Under the pieces are notes generated by a model. The model saw only the letters and a list, made by a program, of their open reading frames with translations, had not been told where the DNA came from and ran no database searches. A program made the translations under genes and the position numbers. From Halorussus caseinilyticus (GTDB taxonomy: Archaea; Halobacteriota; Halobacteria; Halobacteriales; Haladaptataceae), in contig NZ_CP119809.1 of NCBI RefSeq assembly GCF_029338395.1, positions 2,542,001 through 2,606,000 on the forward strand: a stretch of DNA of 64,000 bases, written 5' to 3'. This document shows, one piece after another, positions 3,829-42,045 of this stretch; position 1 is the first letter of the stretch; every line of letters begins with the position of its first letter.

Positions 3829-3861
3829 CTCGGCGTCGGCGAATCGGCGGCGTCGGGATAA

Positions 3862-4107
3862 CGAGCGTTTGGAGAGTCTTCGCTCGCTCCGTGACAGCAT
3901 AGTAGCCGTAAGAGCTACCGAGACGAACGCTCGGAACACCCCCGCTCGCTCCGTGACAGCACCGCAACCGCCGGAAGGACTACCGAGAAGAAGTCTCAGA
4001 AAGCCCCCGCCCGCTCGCGGTCGCTCTGCGGGATATTCTCGCTCGCTTCGCTCGCTCGAATAGTGCCCGCAGAGGCGACCAAGCGGTGCGCGAGCGGGCG
4101 GCCCTTT
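3862..4107 (-). repeat. Dispersed repeat family A, copy 1 (inverted)
   Basis: The core at 3999-4107 is a nested inverted repeat. AAGCCCCCGCCCGCTCGCGG on the left pairs with CGCGAGCGGGCGGCCCTTT on the right, around an inner pair TATTCTCGC / GCTCGAATAG. Its reverse complement matches the copy at 4341. The flanking segment 3862-4000 carries two units about 62 bases apart that share CGCTCGCTCCGTGACAGCA followed by CTACCGAGA. There is no coding signal. It resembles a structured intergenic element more than a decayed gene. Confidence 0.65.
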
Positions 4108-4340
4108 CACCCACCCAAACTGGTGGTGAGTTTCGGCGGGCGTGTGCTGGTGGTTGGTTGCGGCGAGCGCCCGCCGATACCGGCGGGCGTGGGCACTCGA
4201 AACAATTCTCTTAGCAATATTTTTAATTATTTACCGTATCGAAGTATTTTCTAGAGCCATAAAAGAATGTCCGATAAGCGACTACCGAATGCCGGTGAAT
4301 CGTCCGCCGCCGCGACGACGGGCCGACTAGACCACCGGGT

Positions 4341-4556
4341 GGATAAAGGCCGCCCGCTCGCGGGTCGAAGACCCGTGGTCGTCTCAGCGACCCCTATTCG
4401 AGCGCCGAACGAAGTGAGGCGCGAGAATATGTCGCTGAGCGACCGCGAGCGGGCGGGGGCTTTCGAGACGTTCTTCGCTACGATTCCGGCGGTCGCACTC
4501 ACGTTTCCAACGATGCAGAGCGGGCGGGGGCTTTCGAGACGTTCGTCGTCTCGGTT
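4341..4556 (+). repeat. Dispersed repeat family A, copy 2
   Basis: The core 4346-4463 begins AAAGGCCGCCCGCTCGCGG and ends CCGCGAGCGGGCGGGGGC plus TTT, so it can fold back on itself. Inside are the pairs GTCTCAGCGAC / GTCGCTGAGCGAC and CTATTCGAGCG / CGCGAGAATA. Downstream the unit GAGCGGGCGGGGGCTTTCGA is repeated at 4447 and 4518. A near-identical sequence lies at 41731-41950 and an inverted relative at 3862-4107. No protein-coding character is seen. Confidence 0.75.
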
Positions 4557-4655
4557 GTCCCGGTTGCGGTAGTAATTCAGAACGAACGGACGAGAACGTC
4601 CGGTCCCCAACGACCCACCACCGAAACCCGACGACCCACCGCGCCGCTGGCGAGT

Positions 4656-41587: not shown

Positions 41588-42045
41588 CCCCTCTCCCTCT
41601 TCTCCGCACCGACCACGACGGCCGCACACGCCCGACTGACCAACCACCAGCGAACGCCCGGCCGACCAACCGACAGGACGCGCTCGGCCCATCAACCGAC
41701 AGGACGCGACGACGACCAACCGCCGTGGGTGGGATAAAGGGGCCGCCCGCTCGCGGGCCGCAGGCCTGTGGTCGTCTCAGCGACCCCTATTCGAGCGCCG
41801 AACGAAGTGAGGCGCGAGAATATGTCGCTGAACGACCGCGAGCGGGCGGGGGCTTTTGAAACGTTCTTCGCTCCGATACCTGCGGTCGCACTCACGTTTC
41901 CACCGATGCGTAGCGAGCGGGCGGGGGCTTTCGAGGACTTCTTCGCTCCGGTGTCACCGCGACGATTCCGACGACTCCTGACCGCCGACACAGCAACCGC
42001 TACCCGGCCAGCGACTCCGAAAACGAAAACCGAACGTCCCGATTC
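41588..42045. other. Non-coding region containing repeat family A copy 3
   Basis: These 458 bases between the restriction enzyme and the first winged-helix gene contain GACCAACC-type short repeats (41636-41722), the family A copy and a short AC-rich tail. No gene is supported. Confidence 0.6.
41731..41950 (+). repeat. Dispersed repeat family A, copy 3
   Basis: This copy matches 4341-4556 over about 200 bases. It includes identical stretches such as TCGAGCGCCGAACGAAGTGA and CGAGAATATGTCGCTGA, and the same fold-back arms GGCCGCCCGCTCGCGG / CCGCGAGCGGGCGGGGGC. The unit GAGCGGGCGGGGGCTTT recurs at 41840 and 41915. The two loci are 37 kb apart. Confidence 0.8.

Follow-up and report, generated by a model that had tools for sequence, protein, structure and literature searches.

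The small mobile repeat SMR-A of Haloquadratum walsbyi is about 110 bp long, has inverted terminal repeats and is present in tens of copies with no transposase and an 'enigmatic' mover; members of a single type are almost the same in sequence, and they insert, without target duplication, into the palindromes of PATE/IS605 elements (PMC3119063). The BOX repeats of Streptococcus pneumoniae are linked to an insertion sequence through their terminal repeats (PMC3049150), and for REPINs the partner is a RAYT transposase of the Y1 type (PMC3116915). Here we describe a repeat family recognized in a 64,000-nucleotide stretch of the Halorussus caseinilyticus genome (the window), of which a literature search of open-licence papers returned no description. 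The family is dispersed, intergenic and has a conserved, strand-specific structure, and we consider it probable that it consists of small non-autonomous mobile structured repeats of Halobacteria.

Anatomy of the repeat unit

The unit is a core of 115-140 bp, a single strand of which folds into a three-way junction. Around it there are usually head units of ~26 nt upstream and often tail units of ~70 nt downstream, the latter repeating the 3' half of the P1 stem; the numbers of both vary between copies, making the repeat a modular composite. The refined core bounds of the three window copies, A, B and C, were taken from a covariance model trained on 63 copies, and the parts are as follows:

3861..3996, minus strand: copy A tail, made of imperfect 62-65-nt units (direct repeats D2/D3)
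3997..4115, minus strand: copy A core, covariance-model match of 121.8 bits, fold of -70.4 kcal/mol, three-way-junction hairpin
4116..4198, minus strand: copy A head, degenerate CGGC..CCAACC..CACCAG-type units, read by analogy with other heads
4199..4266, no strand: AT-rich spacer separating the diverging copies A and B, as read by eye
4300..4336, plus strand: copy B head, apparently about one unit with the end ACCACCGGGTGG
4337..4466, plus strand: copy B core, covariance-model match of 120.3 bits, fold of -81.0 kcal/mol
4350..4363, plus strand: copy B P1 5' arm, complement of 4443-4456
4362..4374, plus strand: copy B P2 hairpin, GGGTC-GAA-GACCC with a GNA triloop, from the fold
4377..4442, plus strand: copy B P3 arm, with a CCC/T internal loop, tandem GA/GA motifs and a C-GAA-G apical loop, from fold and covariation
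4443..4456, plus strand: copy B P1 3' arm, followed by the terminal motif GGGGGCTTTC
4467..4567, plus strand: copy B tail, second unit at 4518-4567, direct repeat D1
41620..41727, plus strand: copy C head, read as tandem CTCGGCCGACCAACCGACAGGACGCG units
41728..41859, plus strand: copy C core, covariance-model match of 124.8 bits, 89% identity to copy B
41860..41960, plus strand: copy C tail, with a second unit that appears to start at ~41912

On the strand reading 4337->4466 the core comprises, in order, GGGTGGGACTGAAAG, GGG, the P1 5' arm, the optional P2, P3, the P1 3' arm, GGG and CTTTC. Its conserved ends are GGGTGGGACTGAAAGGGG ... GGGGGCTTTC, and in many own-genome copies the starting GGGTGGGACTGAAAG is replaced by GGGTGGATAAAG. 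The P1 arms of copy B, CCGCCCGCTCGCGG (4350-4363) and CCGCGAGCGGGCGG (4443-4456), are 100% complementary; across the family the outer P1 arms form imperfect inverted ends, and P1 contains a symmetrical GGG/GGG internal loop. P3 has the form GGTCG. CTCAGCGAC ccc TATCC ... GGATA t GTCGCTGAG CGACC, in which the CCC/T loop is asymmetrical; the upper part of the arm in many copies consists of tandem GA/GA steps about a C-GNA-G triloop, and in many copies of other Halorussus species of a CCGGGCGKTGC.GAGAGG loop. P2 is reduced in copy A, the own-genome copies at 2401225, 463905, 472268 and 2274195 have extra hairpins at the junction, and the copy at 2279893 lacks P3. The copy upstream of hisG (C1:2736492; locus L130:3001-3127) has an inverted upper P3 compared with the other copies read, which looks like a flipped hairpin.

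A preliminary description of the window had reported three long fold-back copies with arms and an inner pair, a 118-base core and tails of imperfect ~70-base units. All three copies are present with these arms and inner pairs, the 118 bases lie close to the natural unit as bounded by the covariance model, and the tail unit of copy B recurs (4447-4496 and 4518-4567) at a spacing of 71 nt with 80% identity. Copies A and B are inverted relative to each other (44 nt at 93%), and the AT-rich spacer between them may be a promoter region. The fold of 4335-4570 is better than that of shuffled sequences on both strands (z -3.5 and -4.3; 0 of 200 as good).

Several sequences adjoin or resemble the unit. 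Elements at three loci (L254, L255 and L267) have the outer ends GGGACTGAAAGGGGCC ... GGGGGCTTTC with a wholly different interior, which suggests a superfamily with common termini. Simple-repeat runs, (CGACTC)n or (GTCTCC)n, begin within the tails of several copies (L021, L022, L029). A second intergenic repeat family, GCGCGAGGGAYGAG...GAATCGGTTGGGGAGGCGTGTGGC..GCGGTGCGGT, often takes the place of the head directly upstream of the core (L178:1150-1310, L070, L078, L046, L086); it also occurs at L224:1670-1790, and shows presence/absence polymorphism between the two closest Halorussus species, G003 and G014.

Covariation and strand specificity of the fold

Covariation, which the preliminary description had named as a check on the predicted fold, is strong. 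In a sequence-only alignment (A1) standard pairs make up 98.2% of cells, and double-sided changes are seen in 16 of the 35 pairs, with 163 double-change cells against 41 in shuffles. The covariation score is 0.242 versus 0.078 for shuffles, none of 500 shuffles scoring as high and all slid controls scoring lower, with contributions from P1, lower P3 and upper P3. Unpaired positions and loops are conserved as well. The fold is specific to one strand: among P2 triloops 38 are of the GNA type and 4 of the TNC type, the apical loop of P3 reads C-GNA-G in 75 of 172 cases and has the reverse form in 2, and G-T exceeds A-C by about 2:1 (91 vs 45), these loop and wobble counts being slightly inflated by a few duplicate loci in the sets counted. 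Loops of the C-GNA-G type are unusually stable in DNA. Watson-Crick pairs account for ~96% of the counted cells and G-U (G-T) for 1.3-1.9%; such scarce wobble combined with frequent double changes would be less expected of a long-lived RNA helix than of a DNA fold or of copies that swap entire arms. Self-correction of the palindrome as the sole cause of the covariation is disfavoured because the internal GGG/GGG and CCC/T mismatches are conserved instead of being erased.

Dispersal, turnover and homogenisation of copies

In the 4.39 Mb genome of H. caseinilyticus a BLAST search with copy 4341-4570 gave 43 matches, and the covariance model gave 114, or 105 when the E threshold was tightened from 0.01 to 1e-6, so the genome-wide search that had been proposed for the core places the family far above chance. 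Across 18 congeners the number of model matches ranges from 0 to at least 145, the top count coming near the limit of 150 that were scored; the values in other Halorussus genomes are at least 145, 101, 98, 82, 67, 58, 51, 51, 43, 41, 30, 28, 10, 10, 6, 1 and 0. In a class-wide sample matches were recovered from 38 of 116 members and 19 of 45 genera, and most named records that match the core's 3' end come from Halorussus, others from Haladaptatus and Haloarcula. Neither a search of viral contigs with a 25-base end pattern nor a phage BLAST search recovered a carrier of the repeat.

The copies are predominantly intergenic (78 of the 87 examined, with a coding fraction of 0.79 in the window), and no strict rule of orientation or position relative to genes was found among the copies examined: in the own genome the same/opposite counts are 41/36 for upstream and 48/30 for downstream genes, and some copies stand between convergent genes. 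The runs of orientation along the own genome are uneven and the GC skew is weak; with the origin unmapped, a replication-strand bias is uninterpretable. The window copies do lie beside glycan and restriction genes, as had been pointed out in favour of a hypervariable setting, but elsewhere copies adjoin housekeeping genes read as aroA/aroC, hisG and pheA. The facing pair A/B had likewise been proposed as a meaningful, potentially invertible arrangement. Facing or close pairs are not in excess across the own genome (5 adjacent gaps below 2 kb against 6.2 expected under uniform spacing), and no inversion was seen. Both the facing copies and the glycan/restriction neighbourhood are hence best regarded as incidental to this locus.

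Comparison of orthologous loci from 16-17 congeners for three own copies, at aroA/aroC, upstream of hisG and at pheA/hsp20 (gene names as read), shows that copies come and go between related species as insertion polymorphisms. At all three sites the element is present in the own genome only; in relatives that keep the gene order the pheA/hsp20 gap typically measures from some tens to ~110 bp versus ~350 bp here, and one congener (G010) has a different copy upstream of aroC, with unrelated flanks. Turnover is not always fast, since the closest pair of species, G003 and G014, have about five of ten copies in common; at one locus of this pair different copies are found and the remaining intergenic region is unalignable. 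Neither a precise empty site nor a target duplication could be identified at the own sites, where the aroC relatives are ~90% identical at best and intergenic DNA is often unalignable, and no exact ends emerged from G003/G014 and G010, where the intergenic DNA is unalignable or the flanks are duplicated together with the core. The range of copy number among congeners and the three sites unshared with relatives support the earlier suggestion of a non-autonomous mobile palindrome.

Within genomes there is homogenisation limited to the core. In the own genome the copies at 1923783, 1928488 and 1930918 share one core sequence of 124 bp, and the cores at 463905 and 472268 also match each other exactly; past the core ends the heads and tails of these copies are mostly unrelated, one pair sharing a further 26 nt of head. 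The first three belong to a cluster of four copies within 8 kb (C1:1918000-1936000, L138) that surrounds genes read as functioning in aromatic amino acid biosynthesis. Two copies in another species (G005), ~4.4 kb apart, have cores 98.3% identical and unrelated flanks. Four of the five own pairs that are at least 95% identical lie within 10 kb of each other, a distance at which only 0.5% of all pairs are found. Near-identity of the core, unrelated flanks and proximity together suggest one of two local processes: gene conversion confined to the homologous core, or hopping of a core whose ends are defined.

Plasmid copies, rival explanations and known systems

In Haloarcula the core is found in one conserved place, ~500 bp upstream of a gene annotated as SOSS complex subunit B family, on replicons typed MPF_T (e.g. 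pNG500, pHH126, pHsi139). The protein encoded beside it has a Pfam OB-fold match of E 0.004, below the curated cut-off. In 11 Haloarcula sequences identity is 92.9% over the core but 76.3% immediately upstream of it and 56.7% downstream, the P1 arms and ends being near-invariant and the tip of P3 varying in paired fashion; a TATATAAA-like box upstream is, from a reading of the alignment, conserved among all 11. A second GC-rich block adjoins the plasmid core (L251:2731-2883) and recurs on the small plasmids pNB101 (L274:2196-2334) and pHLAJ5II (L275); it is probably a structured noncoding element shared by small haloarchaeal plasmids and the conjugative plasmids of Haloarcula. The fixed place and the conservation of the core above its flanks suggest that it is used on these plasmids, rather than being purely parasitic, and we would guess at a role in initiation on the entry strand or as a noncoding transcript.

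These features bear on the alternatives to a mobile repeat. The core might have begun as a plasmid-borne single-strand signal, i.e. an ssDNA initiation or transfer site, that was amplified in chromosomes: its constant position upstream of the SOSS-B-like gene, its conservation relative to the flanks, the neighbouring block common to small plasmids and the suitability of strand-specific GNA-loop hairpins for folded ssDNA all agree with this. Most copies, however, stand in chromosomal intergenic DNA and are not accompanied by plasmid genes, the OB-fold assignment is weak and the core is without known origin activity, so that such an origin seems improbable. A further conjecture, which we regard as quite unlikely, is that the core is a strand-specific ssDNA (or primer RNA) signal of the entry region of haloarchaeal conjugative plasmids, beside the gene for a single-strand-binding protein, and that it turned into a selfish or domesticated chromosomal repeat of a hundred copies, spreading by virtue of its fold without a Y1 transposase or reverse transcriptase. 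The preliminary description had also considered a structured RNA, and for its 'structured' part the covariation provides strong support. That the fold is selected as RNA, with dispersal reflecting duplication of a useful regulatory module (a UTR element or small RNA), draws on this covariation, on the conserved unpaired positions, the strand-specific loops and the excess of G-T over A-C, and on the conserved box upstream of the structured region on Haloarcula plasmids. Against it stand the lack of a fixed orientation to neighbouring genes and the copies between convergent genes, the absence of site conservation between species and the rarity of G-U, of which RNA helices usually tolerate more; we therefore consider it unlikely. 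A known structured RNA was rejected, since no Rfam 15 family matched either at the gathering score or with E values as high as 5.

Known mobilisers fare no better. The repeats are palindromic, intergenic, dispersed, hairpin-forming and in some cases in inverted pairs, as would be expected of a REPIN or an IS200/IS605-derived PATE moved by a Y1 transposase. Yet the Y1 transposase domain (PF01797) has 0 matches in the own genome with its ~105 copies and is also absent from G001, G002, G009, G010 and G016, which have 30-82 copies each, and copy number is uncorrelated with Y1 number (Spearman 0.21, p 0.41). Such an origin is largely refuted and scarcely credible. None of the 21 genomes searched, the own among them, has a match to the reverse transcriptase family PF00078, which makes retro-mobility unlikely too; no mobilising gene was found in searches for these two domains.

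Under the favoured reading, that of a small non-autonomous mobile repeat, the core, bounded by its conserved ends, folds on one defined strand into P1, the optional P2 and the long P3. Copies would insert into intergenic DNA and build up differently in each species, and nearby copies would overwrite each other's cores by gene conversion or local hopping. The single-stranded fold, more likely of DNA than of RNA, may be read by a host or transposon protein during movement, and plasmids may help to move the family between species. With ~100 copies per genome, and from 0 to at least 145 depending on species, the family offers a system for mapping the mover by comparing rich with empty species; it also marks unannotated constrained sites on conjugative plasmids and supplies an archaeal counterpart to the REP and BOX repeats.

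On the best account available, drawn from likeness of behaviour and not homology, the closest known systems would be the small mobile repeats of Haloquadratum (PMC3119063) and pneumococcal BOX (PMC3049150). With the former the family has in common a haloarchaeal host, terminal inverted repeats and no transposase gene, the SMRs being ~80-110 bp and the core here 115-140 bp; unlike SMR-A, as judged from the descriptions, the Halorussus copies differ from one another, come with arrays of head and tail units, and occupy ordinary intergenic positions in a genome that has no Y1 transposase. BOX, thought to be a non-autonomous parasite (PMC3049150), is likewise an intergenic modular composite with a variable number of units and a stable fold, but its sequence and host are unrelated, and the three-way junction and strand-specific loops are particular to the Halorussus family. 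REPINs resemble it as dispersed palindromes that form single-strand hairpins and spread within genomes (PMC3116915), and differ in the Y1-type RAYT that the own genome lacks. MITEs, which share their terminal repeats with a resident DDE transposon and make target duplications, are also short, non-coding and mobile with terminal inverted repeats, whereas the Halorussus arms covary and their internal mismatches are conserved. The family would therefore seem to represent a little-known type of mobile DNA.
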